The notes under the pieces: generated by a model
Told to the model about the DNA's origin: nothing
The model's input: only the letters and a program-made list of their open reading frames with translations
Database searches by the model: none
Source of the DNA: Georgenia sp. M64
GTDB taxonomy: Bacteria > Actinomycetota > Actinomycetes > Actinomycetales > Actinomycetaceae
NCBI RefSeq assembly: GCF_038049925.1
Contig: NZ_CP145809.1
Location: forward strand, 3,816,599-3,880,598
Direction of reading: 5' to 3'
Length of the DNA: 64,000 nucleotides
In this document: piece after piece, positions 370 through 11,061 of the stretch
Numbering within the stretch: position 1 is the stretch's first letter
Layout: the number at the start of each line of letters is the position of its first letter
Program-made: the position numbers and the translations under genes

Positions 370-2058
370 TCACCACTCCCGCGACGGAGGCAGGATCGTG
401 CCCGGGTTGAGGTTGCGCCCCGGGTCCACCCCACGCAGCAGCGCGACCATGACGTCGGTGCCGGCCTCGGAGATGTCGTCGGCGAGCCAGCGCGCGTGGT
501 CGGTGCCCACGCCGTGGTGGTGGGAGATCGTGGCGGCGTTGTCCATGAAGGACTGCTGCACCGCGTTCTTCACGGTCCAGTACTTCTCGAGCTGGGCGTC
601 GGCGTCGGTGGTGCCCGGCGGGAACGCGAAGGTGAAGTACAGGCACGCACCGGAGTGGTAGCTGTGGGAGAGGTGGCACATGATGAAGCCCTTGACGCCG
701 ATCTCGTCGAAGGCCGCCTGCGCCGCTCGGACCGTGCCCGAGTGGACGTCCATGAGCCGCGACCACGGGGCCGCCGTCTCCGAGACGTCCGCCACCCCGC
801 CGACGTCGAGGAGGAAGTCGCGGATGTAGGGCGTGTCAAACTTCTTCTGGTCGTACAGGGCGCCGGGGCCCGTGCCGAGGCTGATCCCGCCGTGCCTCTT
901 GACGATCTTGCCGACGAGGGCCTTGTTGCGGCGCACGAGGTCCTTGCCGCCCTCGTAGCCGATGTAGGACAGGCACGCGTTGCTCAGGTCCCACCCGCGC
1001 CGCTCCAGCACCGCGAACAGCGCCTTGGACACCTTGCCCTTGATCCCCTTCGACCTCTTCTGCGTCGACAGCGAGAACTGGGTCTCGTTGGCGTCGGACA
1101 CGCGGGTGACCGACGGGGTCGCGTCGGAGGAGGCGATCTCCTGCATGGCCGCCATGCCCGCCGCCCAGGACGGGAAGAGGTAGGCGATGATCTCGCGGTT
1201 CTCCGGCACCCGGTGGACGTTGACCCACGCCTCGGTGATGACGCCGAGCCGGCCCTCCGAGCCGAGGATCATCTCGCGCACGCTGGGGCCCGAGGAGGTG
1301 CTCGGCAGCGGCCGCAGGGCGACGACCTTGCCCGGCAGCACCACGCGCAGACCACGGGTGATGTCGGCGATGTCGCCGTACTTGTCGGACTGCATGCCCG
1401 ACGAGCGCGTCGCGATCCACCCGCCGAGGGTGGAGTGGCGGAAGGAGTCCGGCTGGTGGCCCATGGTCCAGCCGCGCGCGCCGAGCTGGTCCTCCATGTC
1501 CGGGCCGAGGACGCCGGCCTGCACGCGCGCGAGGCCGGCCGCCTCGTCCACCTCGAGCACCCGGTTCATCCGACCGAGGTCGAGCGAGACGATGGTGCGC
1601 GCCTCCGCGGCGGGCGGCGTGAGCGAGCCCGAGATGTTCGACCCGCCCCCGAACGGGATGAGGACGGCGTCCGCCGCGACGACGGCGTCGACGACCGCGC
1701 GCACCTGGTCCTCGTCGGCCGGGTAGACCACGACGTCGGGCACGCGGGGCAGGTCGCCCGCGCGGACGCGCACGAGGTCGGCCAGGCCCTTGCCGTAGGT
1801 GTGGACGAGCCGGTCCTCGTCCTCGACGACGACGTGGCCGTCCCCGACGGCGCCGCGCAGGACGGTGGCGAGGTCCTCACCGAGGCGCGAGGCCGGGACG
1901 GCGATGTCGCTCAGGGCCGGCGGCGGGTTCCCCGGGGCGTGCAGGTCGATGCCGACCCGGTCCAGGACGAACGGCGCCAGCTTGGGCTTGTCGCGGTGGT
2001 TGAAGGCAATGCCCTCCTCGCCCCAGCCCCACCACTTCTGGTGCCGAACTCCGTTCAC
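370..2058 (-). CDS. FAD-binding oxidase, alkyl-dihydroxyacetonephosphate synthase (AGPS) homologue
   Basis: The 562-aa protein is a VAO-type FAD flavoenzyme closest to alkyl-DHAP synthase, which replaces the acyl chain of acyl-DHAP with a fatty alcohol to form the ether bond. The N-terminus has the AGPS-like QKWWGWG motif. The FAD domain shows IPFGGGSNISGSL, then HQPDSFRHSTLGGWIATRS. Near the C-terminus is HHHGVG, the histidine cluster typical of AGPS. It is the last gene of a four-gene operon. Its GTG start overlaps the stop of the acyltransferase gene by 4 bp, which fixes the start. Family membership is clear; the ether-bond reaction is inferred from family and neighbours, because related FAD oxidases can use other substrates. 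Confidence 0.85.
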   Translation of the reverse strand: MNGVRHQKWWGWGEEGIAFNHRDKPKLAPFVLDRVGIDLHAPGNPPPALSDIAVPASRLGEDLATVLRGAVGDGHVVVEDEDRLVHTYGKGLADLVRVRAGDLPRVPDVVVYPADEDQVRAVVDAVVAADAVLIPFGGGSNISGSLTPPAAEARTIVSLDLGRMNRVLEVDEAAGLARVQAGVLGPDMEDQLGARGWTMGHQPDSFRHSTLGGWIATRSSGMQSDKYGDIADITRGLRVVLPGKVVALRPLPSTSSGPSVREMILGSEGRLGVITEAWVNVHRVPENREIIAYLFPSWAAGMAAMQEIASSDATPSVTRVSDANETQFSLSTQKRSKGIKGKVSKALFAVLERRGWDLSNACLSYIGYEGGKDLVRRNKALVGKIVKRHGGISLGTGPGALYDQKKFDTPYIRDFLLDVGGVADVSETAAPWSRLMDVHSGTVRAAQAAFDEIGVKGFIMCHLSHSYHSGACLYFTFAFPPGTTDADAQLEKYWTVKNAVQQSFMDNAATISHHHGVGTDHARWLADDISEAGTDVMVALLRGVDPGRNLNPGTILPPSREW

Positions 2059-2822
2059 GAAGCCTCCTCCTGCTGCGCTCGCGGCTGGTCGGGGCGTTGC
2101 CCGCCCGCGCCGTCGACGTGGTCGTCCTCCCCGCCGGGGACCACGTGGTCACCCAGGACGTACGGGGTCTGCATGGTGAGCATCGCGCGCACCCGGGCGG
2201 CCACGCGGTCGTTGAAGTCGCGGGCCTTCTCGCCCGGGCGGGGCCGCATCGGCCGGCCCACCAGCAGCCGGATGGGCGGGCGGCCGGGCTTCGGCCAGCT
2301 CCGCCCGACGGGCATCGCGTCGTGCGTGCCGATGAGCGCGACGGGCACGCACGGCACGTTCTCCTTGATGCACAGCGCCGCGGCGCCGGGCTTGAAGGCC
2401 TTCATCACCCCGTCCCGCGCACGGGTGCCCTCGGGGAAGATGAGGATCGGCACCCCCTCGGCGAGCAGCCGCTGCGACATGCCCTTGCCCTTGCCCTGGC
2501 CGGTGCGGTGCACGGGGTAGGAGTTGAAGAACAGCCCGGTGAGGAACCGCCGCCACCACGTGTTGAAGAAGTAGTCCGCCGCGGCCGCGACCGCCAGGCG
2601 CCTCGTGACCCGGTAGGGCAGGCGCGTGACCAGGACGGTGGCGTCCATGTGGCTGGAGTGGTTGGCGACGACGACGAACGGGTCGGTCAGCCCCTCGAGG
2701 TTGTCCGCCCCCTCCACCGAGGTCGAGGTGAACGTCCCGACGATCCCACCGAGGATCCACCGCTGCGCGACGAACCGGGCCCACCGGTGCGTCACCGACC
2801 GGAAGCGGGTGAGCTGCTCCAT
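2055..2822 (-). CDS. PlsC-type 1-acyl-glycerol-3-phosphate acyltransferase family protein
   Basis: The 255-aa protein is a member of the PlsC/LPLAT family, membrane-associated enzymes that move acyl groups from acyl-CoA or acyl-ACP to glycerolipid precursors. The catalytic HX4D motif is in NHSSHMD (H55, D60), and the acceptor-binding motif FPEGTR lies near residue 130. Start and stop both overlap neighbours by 4 bp (ATGA), so it is translationally coupled between the dehydrogenase and the alkyl-DHAP synthase. In that setting it may acylate dihydroxyacetone phosphate or the sn-2 position of alkyl-glycerol-3-phosphate; the sequence does not decide which. The last 25 residues are polar and probably disordered. 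Confidence 0.88.
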   Translation of the reverse strand: MEQLTRFRSVTHRWARFVAQRWILGGIVGTFTSTSVEGADNLEGLTDPFVVVANHSSHMDATVLVTRLPYRVTRRLAVAAAADYFFNTWWRRFLTGLFFNSYPVHRTGQGKGKGMSQRLLAEGVPILIFPEGTRARDGVMKAFKPGAAALCIKENVPCVPVALIGTHDAMPVGRSWPKPGRPPIRLLVGRPMRPRPGEKARDFNDRVAARVRAMLTMQTPYVLGDHVVPGGEDDHVDGAGGQRPDQPRAQQEEAS

Positions 2823-3691
2823 CAGCGCCTCCTCAGCCGGACGATGCGCGCGGCCACGAACCGGACCGCGGGGCGCGGGGCGTACTGGGCGAGGAAGGCG
2901 AGCACCTTGTACCGGTGCGACGGCGTGGACCGGGGCCGACCACGCTCGACGTCCGCGAGGCACTCGGCGACCACGCGCTCGGGGTCGAGCCACAGCACCT
3001 CGGGGATCTTCGAGCGCGAGACCCCGGCGCGGTCGTGGAACTCGGTGCGCACCCACCCCGGCAGCAGCGTGGTGACCTGGACGCCGGAGCCCTCGAGCTC
3101 GAGGGCGAGGGCCTCGGAGTAGCTGTACACCCACGCCTTGAGGGCGGAGTAGGCGCCCATGGCGATGAACGCCTGGACCGAGCCGACGTTGACGATGACG
3201 CCGTGGCCACGCTCGCTCATGACACGACCGGCGGCCCCGCCGAGGTGGAGGACGGCGCGGACCATGAGGTCGAGCGCGTCGTCGTGCTCGGAGAGGTCCT
3301 CGCCCAGCAGCGGGCTGTGCAGGCCCCGGCCGGCGTTGTTGATGAGGATCTCCACCGGCGAGGTGGGGTCGACCAGGCGCTCGACGACCGTCGCGACGTC
3401 GGTGGTCTCCGACAGGTCCGCCCGGATCGTCTCGACGTCGACGCCGTATCGCCAGCGCAGCTGGTCGGCGGTCTTCTCCAGGCGGGCGGCGTCGCGGGCG
3501 ACGATGACGAGGGGGCAGCCGCGGGCGGCCAGGGCGTGGGCGAAGGCGAGGCCGATGCCCGAGGTGCCGCCGGTGACGAGGGCACGGCCGTCGAGGACGC
3601 TGCGACCGCCCGCCGGACGTGCGCCCTCGCCGGCCGGACGTGCGCCGCCGTCGGTCGGACGTGCGCCGTCGGCCCTGCCCCGCTCGGTCAT
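2822..3691 (-). CDS. Short-chain dehydrogenase/reductase (SDR)
   Basis: A 289-aa classical SDR. After a roughly 30-residue low-complexity leader (repeats of GARPAG type) comes the Rossmann motif TGGTSGIG. The NNAG motif follows, then the catalytic serine region (NVGSVQ) and YSALK, which holds the Tyr-Lys pair. It probably uses NADP(H). The C-terminus is basic (RLRRR), which would suit membrane contact. Start chosen at MTERG because it overlaps the stop of the upstream reductase gene by 4 bp. Given its neighbours, reduction of acyl- or alkyl-DHAP at the ketone, as done by eukaryotic Ayr1/DHRS7B, is the most economical role. This is inference; SDR substrates cannot be read from sequence. Confidence 0.85.
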   Translation of the reverse strand: MTERGRADGARPTDGGARPAGEGARPAGGRSVLDGRALVTGGTSGIGLAFAHALAARGCPLVIVARDAARLEKTADQLRWRYGVDVETIRADLSETTDVATVVERLVDPTSPVEILINNAGRGLHSPLLGEDLSEHDDALDLMVRAVLHLGGAAGRVMSERGHGVIVNVGSVQAFIAMGAYSALKAWVYSYSEALALELEGSGVQVTTLLPGWVRTEFHDRAGVSRSKIPEVLWLDPERVVAECLADVERGRPRSTPSHRYKVLAFLAQYAPRPAVRFVAARIVRLRRR

Positions 3692-5955
3692 GCCCTCTGC
3701 GCCCCCTTGATGCTCCGCAGGACCGGCGAGAGCCGTCCCTCCGCGGTGGTGGTCCAGGCGTGGACCGGCCACCGCCGCGCACTGGCGTACCGGTACAGGC
3801 TGGCGTCGGGGTTGACGGCGTTGGGGTGGCCGACGACCTCGAGCCACGAGCGGTCCGCGTAGCTGTCGCCGTAAGCATAGGACTCGGCCAGGTCGACGCC
3901 GCGCTCACGGGCGTAGCGCCGCAGCCACGCCGCGCGCGCCTCGCCCACCAGCGGCGACGCGGCGAGGTGCCCGGTCCAGCGGCCCTCGGCGTCCTTCTCC
4001 ATGCTGCCGGCCACGATCTCGTCGAACAGGCCCGCGAGGGGCTCGACGAACACGTCGATCTCCCCGGTGACGAGCACCGTGCGGTGCCCGGCGGCGCGGT
4101 GCGCCTGCACCCGCTCGACCGCCTCGGTGAGCAGGCCGCGCCGCAGGGAGGGCTCGACGACGCGGGCGACGACGCCGCGCAGCTCCTCCTCGGCGATGCC
4201 CTCGTAGCGCCGCATGAAGGTGCGGATGAAGTCCGAGCGGTCCCGGCGCTCGGCGCCGAGGTAGCGCGGGCCGAGGGCGAGGAGGTTCGCCAGCGAGCCG
4301 GGCCAGTGCCGCACCGGCTTCGCGGCCAGCTCGATCCACAGGTAGTGCTCGACCAGGGTGGCCGCGGCGATCGTGCGCTGGAGGTCGAAGACGGCGACGA
4401 CGTCGGTGCGGTGGGGCAGCGCCGGCGGCGGGCCGCCGGCGTCCTTGGACCGGCGGTCCCGCATGAGCCCGGGCACCCCGGGGATGTGGACCTCCTGGAG
4501 GTAGTGCTGCCAGTCGATCTCCGTGACGTCGAACCCGTGCTCGCCGCGCCGATCGGCCGGCAGGCCGGCGTGGAGCGCGCGCGTGCGGGCGTCGTCGAAG
4601 ATCACCTCGGTCTGGGTGTACGGCTGGTACAGGGAGGTGAACTTGCGCAGGGTGCCCAGGTCGCGACGCGCCTTGTCCAGGGTCGACATCCACCCGCGGG
4701 TGCGCTGGTTGGCGGGCAGCCGGCCCAGCGCCTTGTCGGCGAGGTCGACCGCCCTCTCGCGCCGGCCCAGCGCCCGCTCGACGGCGCCGGTGTGCGGGAA
4801 GGACCACGAGGGCACCTGCACGTGCGCGCCCTCGGCGTCCTTGAGCGGGTGCGCCTCGAAGTACTCGCGCACGAGGCGGTACAGCCGCCCGATGGGCAGC
4901 GGGTTGGTGATGCCCGAGGAGACCTGGAAGAACTGCGGCTCCCCGGCCGGGGCGGGCGCGGCCGCCGCGGCCAGGATCGCGTTGACGACGAAGTCGACCG
5001 GGATGACGTCCAGGACGGTGTCGGCCAGGGCGGGGAACTCCGGCAGCAGACCGCGCCCGTAGGCGGCGATGAGCGGGTCGGCGACCTTGAACCCGTCGAT
5101 CCAGCCCGGGTAGGGGTGCTTGAGGGAGGACTCGATGATCGTCGGGCGCACCACCGACAGGCGGTGCCCGGCGCCGGCCCAGAGCTCCTCGGCCACCCGC
5201 TCACCCAGGGCCTTGGTGAACGTGTAGACGTCGGTCCAGCCCAGCGACTGGGCACGCGTACGGCCGGCCTCGACGAGCTCGGCCCGCACCCACTCGCGGC
5301 GGGCCTCCTCGGCCGCCTCGGCGACCGCGGCCGCACCCGCGCGCCGGTGCTGCGCCTGGGCGTCGTCGAGCAGGTGGCGCAGGACCTCGGGACGGCGGGA
5401 GGCGGCCTCGGCCTCCTCGCGGGCCAGCAGGGCCTGCGTCTGCTCGAGGTCGCGGTCGACGTCGTGGTCGAGGGGACGCTCCTCGGCGACCCCCTTGCGC
5501 AGGCCCGCGACGTAGGCGGTCGAGACGTGGACGACGTGGGGGTCGCCGCCCGCGGCGACCAGCGCCTCGTAGAGCGAGACGGGTCCGCCGACGTTCGCGG
5601 TGAACGCCTCGTCGATCGGCAGGTCGAAGGAGACCGTGGAGGCGGAGTGGAGGACGACGTCGAGGTCGCCGGGCAGCGGGGGCAGGTCGCCGAGGTCGCC
5701 GGAGATGACGGTCACGCGCTCGGCGACGGCGGCCGCCGCGGCCTCCTCGCCGAGCTGGGCACGCCAGGGGCGGAAGACGGGCTTGCGCAGGAGCTTGTCG
5801 ACCCGGGCCTGCGCGGACAGCTCGCCGCGCGGACGGACGAGCACGCTCACGCGCGTCGTCGGGTAGGCGGAGAGGAGCTTCTCCAGGACGGCCTGGCCGA
5901 CGAAGCCGGTGGCCCCGGTGAGCAGGACGTGGGCGCCGTCGAGCGGTTTGGACAT
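3688..5955 (-). CDS. Fatty acyl-CoA reductase (NAD-binding_4) fused to HAD-IB phosphatase-like domain
   Basis: A 755-aa two-domain protein. Residues 8-440 form a male-sterility/FAR-type extended SDR with TGATGFVG (13-20) and YTFTK (catalytic Y244, K248). It is expected to reduce fatty acyl-CoA with NADPH to aldehyde or alcohol. Residues about 518-740 resemble the HAD-IB (SerB-like) fold: motif I is FDLQRT (D524), a TGE motif II region follows, and GDSYAD is motif IV. The usual second Asp of motif I (DxD) is replaced by Gln, so phosphatase activity may be altered. It is the first gene of the operon. Start chosen at MSKPLDG; an in-frame start 60 bp upstream would add an unlikely basic leader. 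Confidence 0.87.
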   Translation of the reverse strand: MSKPLDGAHVLLTGATGFVGQAVLEKLLSAYPTTRVSVLVRPRGELSAQARVDKLLRKPVFRPWRAQLGEEAAAAAVAERVTVISGDLGDLPPLPGDLDVVLHSASTVSFDLPIDEAFTANVGGPVSLYEALVAAGGDPHVVHVSTAYVAGLRKGVAEERPLDHDVDRDLEQTQALLAREEAEAASRRPEVLRHLLDDAQAQHRRAGAAAVAEAAEEARREWVRAELVEAGRTRAQSLGWTDVYTFTKALGERVAEELWAGAGHRLSVVRPTIIESSLKHPYPGWIDGFKVADPLIAAYGRGLLPEFPALADTVLDVIPVDFVVNAILAAAAAPAPAGEPQFFQVSSGITNPLPIGRLYRLVREYFEAHPLKDAEGAHVQVPSWSFPHTGAVERALGRRERAVDLADKALGRLPANQRTRGWMSTLDKARRDLGTLRKFTSLYQPYTQTEVIFDDARTRALHAGLPADRRGEHGFDVTEIDWQHYLQEVHIPGVPGLMRDRRSKDAGGPPPALPHRTDVVAVFDLQRTIAAATLVEHYLWIELAAKPVRHWPGSLANLLALGPRYLGAERRDRSDFIRTFMRRYEGIAEEELRGVVARVVEPSLRRGLLTEAVERVQAHRAAGHRTVLVTGEIDVFVEPLAGLFDEIVAGSMEKDAEGRWTGHLAASPLVGEARAAWLRRYARERGVDLAESYAYGDSYADRSWLEVVGHPNAVNPDASLYRYASARRWPVHAWTTTAEGRLSPVLRSIKGAQRA

Positions 5956-6051
5956 TCCGCAGACGATACCGCTGTGCGCCGGGCGGGCCGACCGTGACCG
6001 TGCCACGGTCAGCACGTGGAACGTCTCACGCCCGGAGCGTCCACCCCTGGT

Positions 6052-6079
6052 TTGACGGGGTCCCCCATCGGTCTACGAT
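6052..6079 (+). promoter_or_regulatory. Probable sigma-A-type promoter of the 6123 gene
   Basis: TTGACG at 6052-6057 and TACGAT at 6074-6079 are separated by 16 bp (17 bp if the -35 is read as TTTGAC from 6051). They match the -35 and -10 consensus well and lie in the 167-bp gap between divergent genes. Transcription would start near 6086, about 37 bp before the ATG. Confidence 0.55.
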
Positions 6080-6122
6080 CGGAGGTTGCAGTTGTTTCCT
6101 GTCACCGACGAATCCAGGAGCC

Positions 6123-7613
6123 ATGGGCGTCACCGACGTACCGCAGTGGTTGCCCGCCGCGTTCATCCGCAGCGTTCTCGCCGCCGGTGCCACGGCACCT
6201 CGGGAGGAGATCGAGGCCACCTGCCGGCGGCTCCTCGATCGCTGGGCCGGGCCGGACCGTCGCTTCCACAACGTCAAGCACCTCATCGACGTCCTCGCCC
6301 GGGTGGACGAGCTCGCCGAGGAGACGCACGACCCCGACCTGGTGCGGCTGGCGGCGTGGTACCACGGAGCGGTCTTCAGCTCCACGGCGACGAAGGCGTA
6401 CTCCCGCAGCGGCGGGGAGGACGAGGTCGCCTCCGCCGACCTCGCCACCGAGGAGCTCCTCGCCCTCGGCGTGCCCGAGCGCACCGTCGACCGCATCGCC
6501 GAGCTCATCGTCAACCTCAAGCGGCACGAGGCGGCGGTGCGTGACATCGACTGCCTGGCGCTGTGCGACGCCGACCTGGCCACCCTCGCGGCGGACCCGC
6601 AGCGCTACCGCGCCTACCGGCGGGCCGTGCGGGAGGAGTACGCGCACCTGCCGGTCAGGCACTACGTCGAGGCGCGCAGGAGCATCGTCTCCAAGCTCCT
6701 CGCACGCCGGCACCTCTTTCTCAGCCCCATGGGCGCACAGTGGGAGGACCGGGCGCGGGAGAACCTCACCGCCGAGCTCAACCGGCTCGACGCCGAGCTG
6801 GCCACGCTCGGCGAGGCGATGCCCGAGGAGTCGGTGACCGCCGCCGAGGCCGCACAGGGCGAGGTCTTCGACGAGAGCCACCCGGTCCGTCGTGACAGCG
6901 CCTCGCACGTCTTCACCGCCACCCACGGCACGACCGAGCGGACGGCCGGTCCGTACGACGGACCGGCCGAGCGCCACGCCGCGGAGCGGCACCCGGCACC
7001 GGCTCCCAGCGCCGACACCCCGGCGGTGACCGCCGCCGCTGCCGCGGAGACCGCGGCCGCTGCCGGCAGCGGCGATCGGGCGGCAGACGCCGCCGACAGC
7101 CCGGCGCGTGCACGTGCCTCCTCCCTGGAGTCCTTCCCGGACGACCTCGACGGACGCCGCGACGGTGCGGCCGGCGCGACGCGGGCCGGCCGCGAGCTCA
7201 TCGCCCGCACCTCGCGCGAACGGATCGAGGAGGCCGTGCGCCACGGCGCCGAGCGGGCCGAGCGGGACCGCCGTCAGCGCGAGCGGCTCGTGTCCGCCCG
7301 TGCGGCGCGCGAGGCCGCCCAGCCGTCCCGGACCGAGCGGGTCGCCGACCGTGGCGCCCAGCCGCTCGACCCCTCGGGCGCGCTCCTCACCGCCGCCACG
7401 CCCGCGGAGGCCGGCGATGCCGGGGCCCAGCCCGCGTCGGCCACCCCGGTGGAGCAGCGCTCGGCGGTGGACCGGGTGCCCGAGGAGATCGAGCCCGACC
7501 CGGTGACCGGGGTGCTGGAGCGCCCCGACGCCACCCCCCACAGCGGCATCGAGCGGGAGCCGGAGCTCTTCGGGCACCGCCGGGACCGGCGCAGGGACCG
7601 CCACCGCCGCTGA
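6123..7613 (+). CDS. HD-superfamily-like protein with long disordered tail; HD dyad degenerate
   Basis: The 496-aa protein has residues 1-220 matching the predicted metal-dependent phosphohydrolase family also found in the gene at 8163 (shared RYRAYRRAVREEY and LCDADL blocks). The first metal ligands are present (RFHNVKHL, H49/H53), but the family's FHD motif reads WYHGAVF here (H81-G82), so the defining Asp is missing. Residues about 230-496 are Ala/Glu/Arg-rich and probably disordered. The only good in-frame start is this ATG, although the AGGAG box is just 2 bp upstream, unusually close. It may be a catalytically impaired regulator or binding protein; function unknown. Confidence 0.75.
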   Translation: MGVTDVPQWLPAAFIRSVLAAGATAPREEIEATCRRLLDRWAGPDRRFHNVKHLIDVLARVDELAEETHDPDLVRLAAWYHGAVFSSTATKAYSRSGGEDEVASADLATEELLALGVPERTVDRIAELIVNLKRHEAAVRDIDCLALCDADLATLAADPQRYRAYRRAVREEYAHLPVRHYVEARRSIVSKLLARRHLFLSPMGAQWEDRARENLTAELNRLDAELATLGEAMPEESVTAAEAAQGEVFDESHPVRRDSASHVFTATHGTTERTAGPYDGPAERHAAERHPAPAPSADTPAVTAAAAAETAAAAGSGDRAADAADSPARARASSLESFPDDLDGRRDGAAGATRAGRELIARTSRERIEEAVRHGAERAERDRRQRERLVSARAAREAAQPSRTERVADRGAQPLDPSGALLTAATPAEAGDAGAQPASATPVEQRSAVDRVPEEIEPDPVTGVLERPDATPHSGIEREPELFGHRRDRRRDRHRR

Positions 7614-7775
7614 CGTCGGCCCGCGGGACCCGTTCCGCCGAGCCCGTCCACCGGTCGACGTCGCGGGCCCGCGTCCACAGGCCCGCCGTGCGCCGCCAGG
7701 GCTCGGTGCCGAGCCTGCCTAACGTCGGCCGTGGACGCCCGCACCCGGTGGGCGGGGTGGACGGTGAGGGTGACG

Positions 7776-8066
7776 ATGTCGAGATTCCAGGTGGACAGCA
7801 CGGAGGTCGCCCGAGCGGCCGCGCTGACCCGCGCCAGCACGGCCGTCATCCGGGACGAGGTGACGGCGATGATGGCGCACCTCTCCGCGCTCCAGGCCGG
7901 GTGGACGGGTGCCGCGGCCGCCGCGTTCGCCGGGTGCGCCGAGAGTTGGCGGGCGACGCAGACGCAGGTGGAGCTCTCCCTCGAGCAGGTCACCCAGGCC
8001 CTCGACACCGCGTCGCGGACCTACGCGGAGGCGGAGGCGAGCGCGCAGAGCCTGTTCCTGCGGTGA
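7776..8066 (+). CDS. WXG100 family (ESAT-6-like) protein
   Basis: A 96-aa protein of the size and pattern of WXG100 proteins, small helical hairpins exported by type VII (ESX) secretion. WTG sits at the turn between the two predicted helices, and the C-terminal helix carries YAEAE, which fits the YxxxD/E export signal. Start chosen at MSRFQVD; an in-frame start 45 bp upstream would add an atypical basic leader. No ESX core gene (EccC, EccB, MycP) or second WXG100 partner is present in the window, so the secretion system must be elsewhere. The stop codon lies inside the first unit of a 21-bp tandem repeat. Confidence 0.85.
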   Translation: MSRFQVDSTEVARAAALTRASTAVIRDEVTAMMAHLSALQAGWTGAAAAAFAGCAESWRATQTQVELSLEQVTQALDTASRTYAEAEASAQSLFLR

Positions 8067-8134
8067 GCGGACCTGTTCCTGCGGTGAGCGGACCTGTTCC
8101 TACGGTGAGCGGGCCTGTTCCTGCGGTGAGCGGG
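8051..8134. repeat. 21-bp tandem repeat, four units
   Basis: Four consecutive 21-bp units (cctgttcctgcggtgagcgga and close variants) begin inside the last codons of the WXG100 gene and end 28 bp before the next start codon. Units 1 and 2 are identical; 3 and 4 differ by one or two bases. Each unit contains an in-frame TGA, so loss of the first stop would be followed at once by another. Confidence 0.9.
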
Positions 8135-8162
8135 CCGGCGCCGCGGTCCGTACGATCGCGAG

Positions 8163-9074
8163 GTGGCCGTCCTCGTCGATCCACCGCAGTGGCCGGCCCA
8201 CGGCACCCGCTGGGCCCACCTCGTCTCCGACGCCTCCCTCGTCGAGCTCCACGCCTTCGCCCGGGCGGCCGGGCTGCCGGCGCGGGCCTTCGACCTCGAC
8301 CACTACGACGTGCCGGCCGAGCGGGTGGCGGACCTGGTCGCCGCCGGGGCGGACCAGGTCGCGGCCCGTGAGCTCCTGGCCCGGCTCACCGCCTCGGGGC
8401 TGCGGGTGCGTGGGGCCGACCGCGACGCGCTCGCCGCCGCCCGCCGCCGGGACGACCTCGTGCGCCGCTGGGCGCGCCTGGCGCCCGAGCTGCCGGTCGG
8501 GGCGTGGATGCCGGCCGGCACCGACCTGCTCGGCCGGTGGGCGGAGCCGCACCGCGGCTACCACGACCTCGGCCACCTGCACGAGGTCCTCGTCCACCTC
8601 GACGTGCTCGCCGAGAGCGGCGAGCGGTTCGGGCGGCCCGCGGTCCTGGCCGCGTGGTTCCACGACGCGGTCTACCGCGGCCGTCCGGGACAGGACGAGG
8701 CCGACTCGGCGGAGCTGGCGCGGGCCGAGCTCGACGCCCGGGGGGTCGCGGCGGCCGACGAGGTCGCCCGGCTCGTCCGCGTGACCGCCGCCCACCTGCC
8801 CGACGTGGCAGACAGCGACGCCGCGGCGCTGTGCGACGCCGACCTCGCGGTCCTGGCCGCCTCGCCGCGCCGCTACGCCCGGTACGTCGCCGGGGTGCGG
8901 CGCGAGTACCCGCACGTCACCGACGAGGACTTCCGGCGGGGGCGGGCCGAGGTCCTGCGGCGGCTCCTCGGGCGCGGGCACCTGTTCACCACGACGACCG
9001 GCCGGCGCCGCTGGGAGCGTCCCGCCCGGGACAACGTCGCGCTCGAGCTCACGTCGCTGGAGACCCACCGCTGA
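8163..9074 (+). CDS. DUF4031 domain fused to HD-superfamily phosphohydrolase domain
   Basis: A 303-aa, GTG-started protein. The first 80 or so residues (AVLVDPPQWPAHGTRWAHL) are a DUF4031 domain. The rest is an HD-type domain with metal ligands in GYHDLGHL and an intact WFHDAVY motif, then a glutamate-bearing GQDEADS segment and CDADL. It is a paralogue of the HD domain in the gene at 6123, but with the HD dyad intact, so it is the likelier enzyme. The substrate is unknown; family members are only predicted phosphohydrolases. It lies 97 bp downstream of the WXG100 gene, across the tandem repeat. Confidence 0.82.
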   Translation: MAVLVDPPQWPAHGTRWAHLVSDASLVELHAFARAAGLPARAFDLDHYDVPAERVADLVAAGADQVAARELLARLTASGLRVRGADRDALAAARRRDDLVRRWARLAPELPVGAWMPAGTDLLGRWAEPHRGYHDLGHLHEVLVHLDVLAESGERFGRPAVLAAWFHDAVYRGRPGQDEADSAELARAELDARGVAAADEVARLVRVTAAHLPDVADSDAAALCDADLAVLAASPRRYARYVAGVRREYPHVTDEDFRRGRAEVLRRLLGRGHLFTTTTGRRRWERPARDNVALELTSLETHR

Positions 9075-9190
9075 GGACCGGCTGCCCGATGGTCCCTGGC
9101 CCCCCGGCCGGCCGGGCCGGACGATGGAGAGGTCAGGTCGGCAGGGCCGGACCGGCGCGGCCGGACCGGCGGGCGGGGAGGAGCAGAACG

Positions 9191-9472
9191 GTGGCACACA
9201 CGTGGAAGGTGCAGATCGACCTCTTCAACGCCAGCGAGGTCCGCTCCGACGAGCCCCTCACCACCGCCCACGCGGCGCTGACGACGTCCGCGGGGACGAC
9301 CCTCAACGGGTACGGGCGCGCCAGGCGCAACCCCGGTGACTCGGACGTGCCCGAGATCGGCGAGGAGCTCGCCGCCGCGCGAGCCCTGCGCGACCTGGCG
9401 GACCGCCTGCTCCGGGCGAGCTCGGACGACATCTCCGCCCTGGAGCACCACCGGGTCCATCTCGCCCGGTAG
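9191..9472 (+). CDS. DUF1876 domain protein
   Basis: A 93-aa actinobacterial DUF1876 protein. The recognisable core is WKVQIDLF near the N-terminus, followed by GYGRARRNPGDSDVPEIGEELAAARAL, the conserved signature of this small family. The fold resembles a dsRNA-binding-like alpha/beta unit; a role in RNA binding or stress is not established. The GTG start gives the normal family length. It stands alone, 118 bp after the HD gene and 87 bp before the sugar kinase gene. Confidence 0.85.
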   Translation: MAHTWKVQIDLFNASEVRSDEPLTTAHAALTTSAGTTLNGYGRARRNPGDSDVPEIGEELAAARALRDLADRLLRASSDDISALEHHRVHLAR

Positions 9473-9558
9473 GTCTCCCGCCCGCCGCGCTCGCGGCCCG
9501 GGCGCGCGTCGCCGGGTTCCCCCCTAGGCTCCAGGAGCCGACAGCGAGAGGGGCAGCC

Positions 9559-11061
9559 GTGACCGGAACGACGTCCGTGACCGGGACGACGAGCGTGGGG
9601 CTCACCGAGGCGGTCGACCCGCTCGTCGTCGCCCTGGACGTCGGCTCGACCGGCACCCGCGGCGGCGTCTACGACGCCACCGGGCGCCCGGTGCGCGGCC
9701 TGCGCCACAAGGTGCCCCACGGGTTCACCACCCGGCCCGACGGCACGTCCGAGATCGACCCGGCCCAGGTGCTGAGGGAGGTCGCGGAGATCCTCGACGC
9801 CCTCGACGACAGTCGGCTCGGCGCCCGGGTCCGGGGCGTCGCGCTCGACACCTTCGCGGCCAGCCTCGTGGGTGTCGACGCCGCCGGGACCGCCGTCACG
9901 GCCTGCCTGACCTACGCCGACTCGCGCAGCGCCGCCCACGCCGCTGCCCTGCGCCGCGAGCTCGACGTCCGCGCGGTCCACGACCGCACGGGCACGATGA
10001 TCCACCCGTCGTACCACGCACCCCGGCTGCGGTGGCTGGCGGCCACCGCACCCGACGTCGTCGTGCGCTCGTCGTCCTGGTGGTCCCTCGGCGAGTACGT
10101 CTACCACCACCTTCTCGGCACGACCGCCGTCGGCACCTCGACGGCGGCGTGGACCGGCCTGCTCGACCGGCGGACCGGCGCCTGGGACACCGAGCTGCTC
10201 GAGGCGACCGGGACCGACCCCGAACGGTTCTCCGCCGTCCACGACCCGGGCGTGCCCCTGACCCCGGCGACCGGCGAGGTCGCCCGCCGGTGGCCCACGC
10301 TTGCCGGTGCCGTGTGGTTCCCTGTCGTCTCGGACGGGTTCGCGAGCAACGTCGGCGCGGGCGCCGTGGACGCGACGTCGATCGCGGCGGCAGCGGCCAC
10401 CTCGGGGGCGCTGCGCGTGCTCCTGGACGCCCCGCCGGAGACGGTCCCCGACGGGCTGTGGAGCTACCGGGTCGACGCCGGGCGCTCCCTCCTCGGCGGC
10501 GCGCTCAACGACGTCGGCCGCGCCGTGACCTGGCTCTCCGAGACCCTCCGACTCGACGGCGCGCAGGGCGCCGTCCTCCTCGCCGAACCCTCCGCCACCA
10601 CCCCTCTCGTGCTGCCCTACCTCTCCGGGGAGCGGGCACCGGGCTGGGCCGGTGACGCCCGTGCCGTCCTCACCGGCGTGGGAGCGGCCACCACGCCGGA
10701 CGACCTCTACCGCGGCACGCTGGAGGGCGTCGCGCTGACCTACGCCCGGGTGGCCGACCTCCTCGCACCGGCTGCGCCGGACGCGGACCGGATCATGGCC
10801 TCGGGCCGCGTGGCCAAGGACCTGCCCGAGTGGCTCCAGGTCCTCGCCGACGTGCTGGGTCGGCCCGTCACGCACGTCACCGCCCGGCGCTCGACCCTGC
10901 GGGGCACCGCACTCCTCGCGCTGGACGTGCTCGCCCCGGCGGTGGCGAGGTCGTCGCCGGAGACCGGGGCCACGTACGAGCCCGTCCCCGGACGTGCCGG
11001 GTACTACCGCGACCGCAGGGGGCGGTTCGAGGCGCTCTACGACGCGCTCGTGCGGGGCTGA
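9559..11061 (+). CDS. FGGY-family carbohydrate kinase
   Basis: A 500-aa kinase of the ASKHA fold that phosphorylates a sugar or polyol with ATP in the cytoplasm. The N-terminal phosphate-binding motif is ALDVGSTGTRGGVYD, and the C-terminal domain has LSGERAPGW followed by RGTLEGVALTYARV and the ATP-binding GRVAKDLPEWLQVLAD. The SGER-P motif is typical of gluconokinase-like members, so a gluconate or related acid substrate is possible but unproven. The length is usual for the family. GTG start; a second GTG-type start 27 bp downstream would shorten only a low-complexity leader. No transporter or sugar-pathway gene is adjacent. Confidence 0.88.
   Translation: MTGTTSVTGTTSVGLTEAVDPLVVALDVGSTGTRGGVYDATGRPVRGLRHKVPHGFTTRPDGTSEIDPAQVLREVAEILDALDDSRLGARVRGVALDTFAASLVGVDAAGTAVTACLTYADSRSAAHAAALRRELDVRAVHDRTGTMIHPSYHAPRLRWLAATAPDVVVRSSSWWSLGEYVYHHLLGTTAVGTSTAAWTGLLDRRTGAWDTELLEATGTDPERFSAVHDPGVPLTPATGEVARRWPTLAGAVWFPVVSDGFASNVGAGAVDATSIAAAAATSGALRVLLDAPPETVPDGLWSYRVDAGRSLLGGALNDVGRAVTWLSETLRLDGAQGAVLLAEPSATTPLVLPYLSGERAPGWAGDARAVLTGVGAATTPDDLYRGTLEGVALTYARVADLLAPAAPDADRIMASGRVAKDLPEWLQVLADVLGRPVTHVTARRSTLRGTALLALDVLAPAVARSSPETGATYEPVPGRAGYYRDRRGRFEALYDALVRG

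Follow-up and report, generated by a model that had tools for sequence, protein, structure and literature searches.

The window analyzed here, a 64,000-nucleotide stretch of the Georgenia sp. M64 genome (contig NZ_CP145809.1, positions 3,816,599 to 3,880,598), contains four minus-strand genes (positions 370-5955) that raise the question of whether an actinobacterium could form ether lipids by a bacterial counterpart of the peroxisomal pathway. To our knowledge, aerobic bacterial ether-lipid synthesis has been worked out for few organisms; ether lipids have reportedly also been found in Rubrobacterales, although the argument here does not draw on them. Their products are a fatty acyl-CoA reductase carrying a fused HAD domain (FAR-HAD), a short-chain dehydrogenase/reductase (SDR), a PlsC-type acyltransferase, and a homologue of AGPS, the alkyl-dihydroxyacetone phosphate (alkyl-DHAP) synthase. 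We consider it likely that the four genes together specify an aerobic pathway of the acyl-DHAP type leading to 1-O-alkyl glycerolipids, all substrates and the product being predicted. In this pathway, the FAR domain would reduce fatty acyl-CoA to fatty alcohol, while the PlsC-type enzyme (or another acyltransferase) would provide 1-acyl-DHAP. The AGPS homologue would replace the acyl chain by the fatty alcohol, creating the ether bond, and the SDR would reduce 1-alkyl-DHAP to 1-alkyl-glycerol-3-phosphate (1-alkyl-G3P), which would then enter ordinary phospholipid synthesis.

Assignment of the AGPS homologue

The AGPS homologue features the Pfam domains FAD_binding_4 and FAD-oxidase_C. In a phmmer comparison with PDB sequences, it matched the AGPS enzymes of Dictyostelium (2uuu; 366 bits, E 2.5e-108; 186/467 identical residues, 39.8%) and guinea pig (4bby; 287 bits, E 3.4e-84; 166/504, 33%). 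The next family, glycolate oxidase, reached 71 bits (E 7e-19), and both solved AGPS enzymes thus outscored the oxidases by more than 200 bits. A residue map of 15 guinea pig positions revealed identical residues for T309, R419, R515, Y578, and H615-617, whereas positions 231, 469, 523, and 527 differ. We take Tyr578, His615-617, Arg515, and Arg419 to be catalytic residues of the guinea pig enzyme. Their counterparts R319 (equivalent to R419), R413, Y474, H513, and H515 are invariant in an alignment of 13 AGPS proteins, comprising the window protein and 12 others that are 32-86% identical to it.

The AGPS assignment had been proposed in a first-pass annotation of this DNA, with the proviso that it should be given up if the active-site Tyr and His were missing on alignment. 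Both are present, and the closest solved relatives are AGPS enzymes. According to its domains, closest structures, and catalytic residues, the protein is a predicted alkyl-DHAP synthase. A different reading is that it represents a flavoprotein with another function, such as a hydroxy-acid oxidase or some other enzyme that forms bonds, in which case the operon would make ordinary acyl lipids or fatty alcohols. This reading draws on the domains that the AGPS family has in common with glycolate and lactate dehydrogenases, but is countered by the score difference and by the retained catalytic residues; the genomic evidence on it is considered below.

Fatty acyl-CoA reductase with an altered HAD domain

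For FAR-HAD, the Pfam domains NAD_binding_4, Sterile, and HAD were identified, the Sterile domain being marginal (35.6 bits, cut-off 35.4). The closest solved relative is the fatty acyl-CoA reductase 7eoz (E 7e-52), matching residues 5-500. A GxxGxxG motif and a YxxxK motif are both present, and the active-site residues Y244 and K248 of the latter are conserved in 56/56 proteins of an alignment composed of the window protein, 49 proteins from named loci, and 6 from stretches of other genomes. The proposed function as fatty acyl-CoA reductase is thus borne out by the domains, the YxxxK motif, and the 7eoz match.

Concerning the HAD domain, it had been suggested that it could remove the phosphate of a pathway intermediate. 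The domain passes the model TIGR01490 with 104.8 bits (cut-off 98.3). Across the 56 proteins, the motif I nucleophile is Asp and the motif II Thr/Ser is retained throughout, and both Asp residues of GDxxxD are found in 55, the remaining protein having a gap. However, the second aspartate of the HAD-IB DxD motif is replaced in the window protein, which reads D-L-Q; at this position, the alignment holds Asp in 18 proteins, Glu in 30, Gln in 7 (including the window protein), and His in 1. Because of the Gln in place of the second motif I Asp, the HAD domain of the window protein is probably not an ordinary phosphatase, which weakens the suggested role.

These data also bear on the type of lipid formed. 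Instead of membrane phospholipids, the operon could yield neutral or glycolipid-type ether lipids for storage or the envelope, if alkyl-G3P were acylated and then dephosphorylated by the HAD domain. We regard this as possible, if somewhat unlikely. The fusion of a HAD-IB domain to the reductase, its well-conserved nucleophile, motif II, and GDxxxD, and the TIGR01490 match are consistent with it, as is the HAD-superfamily protein ElbB described for a myxobacterial ether-lipid operon (PMC9131029), whereas the canonical second Asp in only 18/56 proteins argues against it.

SDR and PlsC-type acyltransferase

The remaining two enzymes were assigned to broad families. The SDR matched adh_short (Pfam, E 2e-37) and stayed below the cut-off of every one of the 25 NCBIfam models shown among 215 matched, the closest being mycolate reductase (165 bits, cut-off 380). 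By profile and structure search it is a generic SDR, for which the role of an alkyl/acyl-DHAP reductase, as a possible counterpart of DHRS7B/Ayr1, is proposed. The PlsC-type protein contains PF01553 (Acyltransferase, E 3e-20) and the sequence HSSHMD, an H-X4-D motif that we assume to be the catalytic motif of these acyltransferases. Its closest solved structure is 5kym, a 1-acyl-sn-glycerol-3-phosphate acyltransferase, and its closest named model is 1-acylglycerol-3-phosphate acyltransferase, whose cut-off it did not reach. The protein may act as a DHAP or 1-alkyl-G3P acyltransferase, acylation of DHAP being the putative step in the pathway.

Structure of the operon

All four enzyme families named in the first-pass annotation were recovered by Pfam analysis of the translations (Table 1). 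The annotation had described the genes as joined by 4-bp overlaps, which holds for two of the three junctions, namely FAR-HAD/SDR (ATGA, 3688-3691) and PlsC/AGPS (GTGA, 2055-2058), but not for SDR/PlsC (TGATG), where the overlap is 1 bp (at 2822), as read from the sequence. With all genes on the minus strand and overlaps of 4, 1, and 4 bp, the interpretation as a single operon stands. A gene call based on codon usage returned the same four genes, which had been part of its training set, so that it is not independent.

Table 1. Genes, domains, and predicted functional residues of the Georgenia sp. M64 operon (positions within the window).
Feature	Position	Strand	Remarks
FAR-HAD, fatty acyl-CoA reductase with HAD domain	3688-5955	-	755 aa
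FAR part (NAD_binding_4 + Sterile), approx. residues 1-500; HAD-IB-like domain, approx. residues 521-720	3688..5955	-	Pfam, NCBIfam
HAD motif I D524-L525-Q526, nucleophile Asp retained, second Asp replaced by Gln	4378..4386	-	56-protein alignment
SDR	2822-3691	-	289 aa
PlsC-type acyltransferase	2055-2822	-	255 aa
H55-X4-D60 (HSSHMD) in the PlsC-type protein	2643..2660	-	translation
AGPS homologue	370-2058	-	562 aa, GTG start
AGPS R413, corresponding to guinea pig R515	820..822	-	residue map; invariant in 13/13
AGPS Y474, corresponding to guinea pig Y578	637..639	-	residue map; invariant in 13/13 aligned AGPS
AGPS H513-H515, corresponding to guinea pig H615-H617	514..522	-	H513 and H515 invariant in 13/13; H514 in at least 90%

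In positions 1-370, which were examined for repeats and adjoin the AGPS gene on its downstream side, a perfect 86-bp direct repeat was observed at 1-86 and 145-230, with a start-to-start spacing of 144. On the other side, the divergent neighbour gene (6123-7613, plus strand, 496 aa) had no Pfam match at 0.001; by eye, the first part of its product resembles a DUF4031-containing gene at 8163-9074.

Conservation of the gene module

Searching with the 13 AGPS proteins of the alignment yielded at least 588 stretches, 532 of which were confirmed; the best 80 were retained, so that the set is skewed toward near relatives. In these 80 loci, the order SDR, PlsC, AGPS on one strand was found in 61, and 51 have a FAR-HAD that scores 500 bits or more and lies within 9 kb. 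The 65 loci with at least 6 kb of sequence upstream of AGPS were testable for the whole module: 54 of them have SDR, PlsC, and AGPS in this order, 49 have FAR-HAD, and 46 have both. Three further loci combine SDR and AGPS with FAR-HAD, and eight possess neither the full order nor FAR-HAD. The recurring gene order exceeds chance, and the four families co-occur in other genomes as well.

FAR-HAD is transcribed divergently in 45/51 loci and collinearly in 6/51 (three Georgenia, Jiangella, Occultella, and Actinomycetales JB111). In a midpoint-rooted FastTree phylogeny of 58 FARs, the collinear FARs, the window FAR, and that of one other genome formed a clade of eight with a support of 1.0.

The AGPS gene is present in 9/9 Georgenia genomes sampled (G000-G008, host included). 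Within a sample of 197 genomes of the class, likewise including the host, a near AGPS (E <1e-180) was detected in 20, a near FAR-HAD (E <1e-250) in 17, and both in 15, the cut-offs having been set after viewing the score gap; Fisher's test, which ignores relatedness, gave p 2e-16. At E <=1e-60, 90 of the 197 genomes possess an AGPS homologue, 70 of them only distant ones belonging to the same family as the Georgenia AGPS and being 32-41% identical to it. In the surroundings of the one such distant locus examined (L126), no match to a FAR, SDR, or PlsC of the module type was found.

Lipid data and the case of Kineococcus rubinsiae

Dimethylacetals, taken as indicative of plasmalogens in PMC7472656, are in print for two aerobic actinobacterial groups: branched dimethylacetals are reported for Subtercola (PMC5945732), and anteiso-C15:0 dimethylacetal was identified by gas chromatography-mass spectrometry in Kineococcus rubinsiae B12 (PMC7472656). 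The K. rubinsiae genome encodes an AGPS (L051) with 60% identity, and an SDR with 45% identity approximately 2 kb from AGPS on the opposite strand. Elsewhere (L180), a FAR-HAD gene precedes one for PlsC (44% and 48% identity, respectively, to the best matches in the reference set). Thus, the four families co-occur in an actinobacterium that is aerobic and for which vinyl ethers are reported.

According to PMC7472656, the MIDI identification system had misnamed the K. rubinsiae dimethylacetal as C14:0 2-OH. Frondihabitans is described in PMC5945732 as being without dimethylacetals, yet C14:0 2-OH is listed there. The AGPS of Frondihabitans sucicola (L099, approx. 9001-10658) was observed to read in two frames. 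The gene may be truly broken, or the sequence may contain an error; alternatively, the dimethylacetal may have been misnamed.

Comparison with known systems and the anaerobic route

The operon shares with the animal peroxisomal pathway (FAR1, GNPAT, AGPS, and acyl/alkyl-DHAP reductase) a FAR with NAD_binding_4 and Sterile domains, an AGPS with its catalytic residues, a PF01553 acyltransferase, and an SDR. Unlike the animal pathway, the Georgenia genes are united in a single operon, the FAR is extended by a HAD domain, and the acyltransferase is PlsC-like; furthermore, a search run without a positive control detected no PEDS1 match on the Georgenia side.

Among published systems, the MXAN_1676-1674 and elb operons of myxobacteria come closest. 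In Myxococcus xanthus, MXAN_1676-1674 are described as encoding an AGPS, a FAR with a GNPAT-like domain, and an epimerase/dehydratase-like protein, thus placing AGPS beside FAR and acyltransferase functions and another NAD-dependent enzyme in one operon, and the HAD-superfamily protein ElbB belongs to the elb operon (PMC9131029). FAR and acyltransferase are fused there and the HAD protein is encoded separately in the other operon (PMC9131029), whereas Georgenia has a FAR-HAD fusion, a separate acyltransferase, and a classical SDR; the likeness refers to descriptions, not to sequence comparison. Disruption of MXAN_1676 is reported to cause a minor reduction in ether lipids, the main effect being that of elbD disruption (PMC9131029). 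Aerobic ether lipids in an actinobacterium had been expected to be notable; the dimethylacetals published for Subtercola and Kineococcus and the partly parallel AGPS operon published for Myxococcus temper this view. AGPS homologues of Black Sea Actinobacteria were likewise reported from a homology screen (PMC11868695). A description of the four-gene actinobacterial operon was not found among the open-licence papers searched on ether lipids and AGPS.

Actinobacterial ether and vinyl-ether lipids might instead be products of the anaerobic, reductive PlsA/PlsR route, the operon being unrelated to them. A review mentions plsA/plsR in some Actinomycetales and Propionibacteriales (PMC9702350). The search for this route was based on PF09989 (DUF2229). 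This family, presumably a PlsA domain, was detected in 0/24 genomes, including the host and K. rubinsiae, while 4/14 controls were positive. With no PF09989 match in these 24 genomes, the anaerobic route was rejected, and we judge it highly improbable. PF10520 (PEDS1/CarF) was detected in 0/24 genomes as well, K. rubinsiae included, and the control genomes were silent too.

A di-iron protein associated with FAR-HAD

A family of approximately 265 aa occurs near FAR-HAD in 29/80 loci and splits into the subfamilies C4a (28 proteins) and C4b (25 proteins). C4a adjoins FAR-HAD in 28/80 loci and is a predicted di-iron protein with a desaturase fold, that is, a helical fold with the ligand series Glu, ExxH, Glu, ExxH. 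The ligands Glu45, Glu77, His80, Glu141, Glu171, and His174 are retained in 12/12 aligned proteins (of 28), whereas the full set is not retained in the 11 aligned C4b proteins (of 25). The structural model of C4a (pLDDT 84.6) aligned best with stearoyl-acyl carrier protein (ACP) desaturase (VIA-align Z 18.4, 3.1 Å, 234 residues), R2-like oxidases reaching Z 15.7 and less; unrelated helical folds can reach Z of about 13 in VIA-align. Foldseek returned a single match below E 0.001, an 18:0-ACP desaturase (5.8e-4), and the Pfam family FA_desaturase_2 fell short of its cut-off (20.2 versus 22.7 bits). The modelled desaturase fold by itself shows no function.

Among 50 genomes hand-chosen from the 80 named AGPS-bearing records, C4a was present in 29, namely in 28/33 with FAR-HAD near AGPS versus 1/17 without (hand count). 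In the class sample, a near C4a was found in 18/197 genomes, 16 of which have a near FAR-HAD and 14 a near AGPS. Three of the nine Georgenia genomes possess C4a. The host is one with a C4a/C4b tandem (G000:C1 177,907-179,528), unlinked to the operon. In the stretch around it (L117, G000:C1:171000-187000; 3854-8529), the pair was seen beside a 437-aa protein without a Pfam match, an extracytoplasmic function (ECF) sigma factor, and an RskA-type anti-sigma factor, and by eye L118 and L120 have similar sigma/anti-sigma neighbours.

It is conceivable that, in lineages with the C4a/C4b pair beside FAR-HAD, the soluble C4a, together with its degenerate partner C4b, adds the 1'-double bond, which would make the module the missing aerobic route, without PEDS1/CarF, to the plasmalogens reported for aerobic actinobacteria. 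If true, C4a would represent a second, non-homologous, O2-dependent desaturase forming vinyl ethers. We consider this unlikely, given that K. rubinsiae has dimethylacetals and no C4a match in its genome, that 6/9 Georgenia genomes are without C4a, and that four genomes (G055, G039, G195, and G267) have C4a without any AGPS at E <=1e-60. C4a thus tracks FAR-HAD more closely than AGPS, and it may instead desaturate the acyl chain. The use of C4a as a plasmalogen marker was dropped, since it is missing in K. rubinsiae, the only one of the 50 for which printed dimethylacetal data were found.

Evidence weighing against the proposed pathway

Besides the altered HAD domain, several observations weigh against an alkyl-glycerolipid pathway encoded by the operon. 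Among the 65 testable loci, eight have SDR, PlsC, and AGPS in order but no FAR-HAD of this type nearby, and in five (L049, L051, L052, L058, and L066) AGPS occurs without PlsC in its vicinity and without a same-strand SDR upstream. The PlsC-type protein and the SDR are indistinguishable here from lysophosphatidate acyltransferases and other reductases, and three more PF01553 matches exist in the host genome. In K. rubinsiae, the four families lie at two separate sites instead of forming one operon, and its dimethylacetals point to alkenyl, not alkyl, ethers. Furthermore, no lipid analysis of the host was found among the open-licence papers searched. Standard fatty-acid analyses miss saturated alkyl ethers, and this silence therefore says little.

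FAR-HAD was also found in other surroundings. Five stretches from four genomes (L158, L159, L162, L163, and L166) contain FAR-HAD with PlsC and two more genes, without AGPS. The families were scanned in L166, where one of the additional genes codes for a zinc alcohol dehydrogenase and the other for a LarA-like isomerase (NF052592, 806 bits, cut-off 740); those of the other four stretches are alike by eye, in length and opening sequence. This cluster shares the FAR-HAD family and a PlsC gene with the Georgenia operon, but differs from it in the zinc alcohol dehydrogenase and the nickel-pincer nucleotide (NPN)-dependent isomerase, and neither AGPS nor an SDR of the operon type was seen in the stretches read. 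The FAR-HAD/PlsC pair is therefore not exclusive to the AGPS module and has another or a wider role, a further point against the proposed pathway. In the FastTree phylogeny, the L158 and L159 FARs (genomes G195 and G267) branch beside the Georgenia clade, which is why the FAR-HAD gene has probably switched context.

Both the five loci with AGPS apart from PlsC and a same-strand SDR and the AGPS-free clusters would fit a flavoprotein of another function, the reading introduced above. Nevertheless, with a fatty acyl-CoA reductase linked to AGPS in 49/65 loci, in addition to the structural scores and catalytic residues, we consider such a function distinctly unlikely and favour the synthesis of 1-O-alkyl glycerolipids.

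Implications for actinobacterial ether lipids

The operon may account for the plasmalogen-type lipids reported from aerobic actinobacteria, and the module is a candidate explanation for the dimethylacetals of the aerobic Subtercola and Kineococcus. Chemotaxonomy is affected as well, in view of the routine identification system that, as reported in PMC7472656, named a dimethylacetal C14:0 2-OH. As a compact module present in many actinobacteria, the four genes would make the peroxisomal pathway accessible in a tractable bacterial form.

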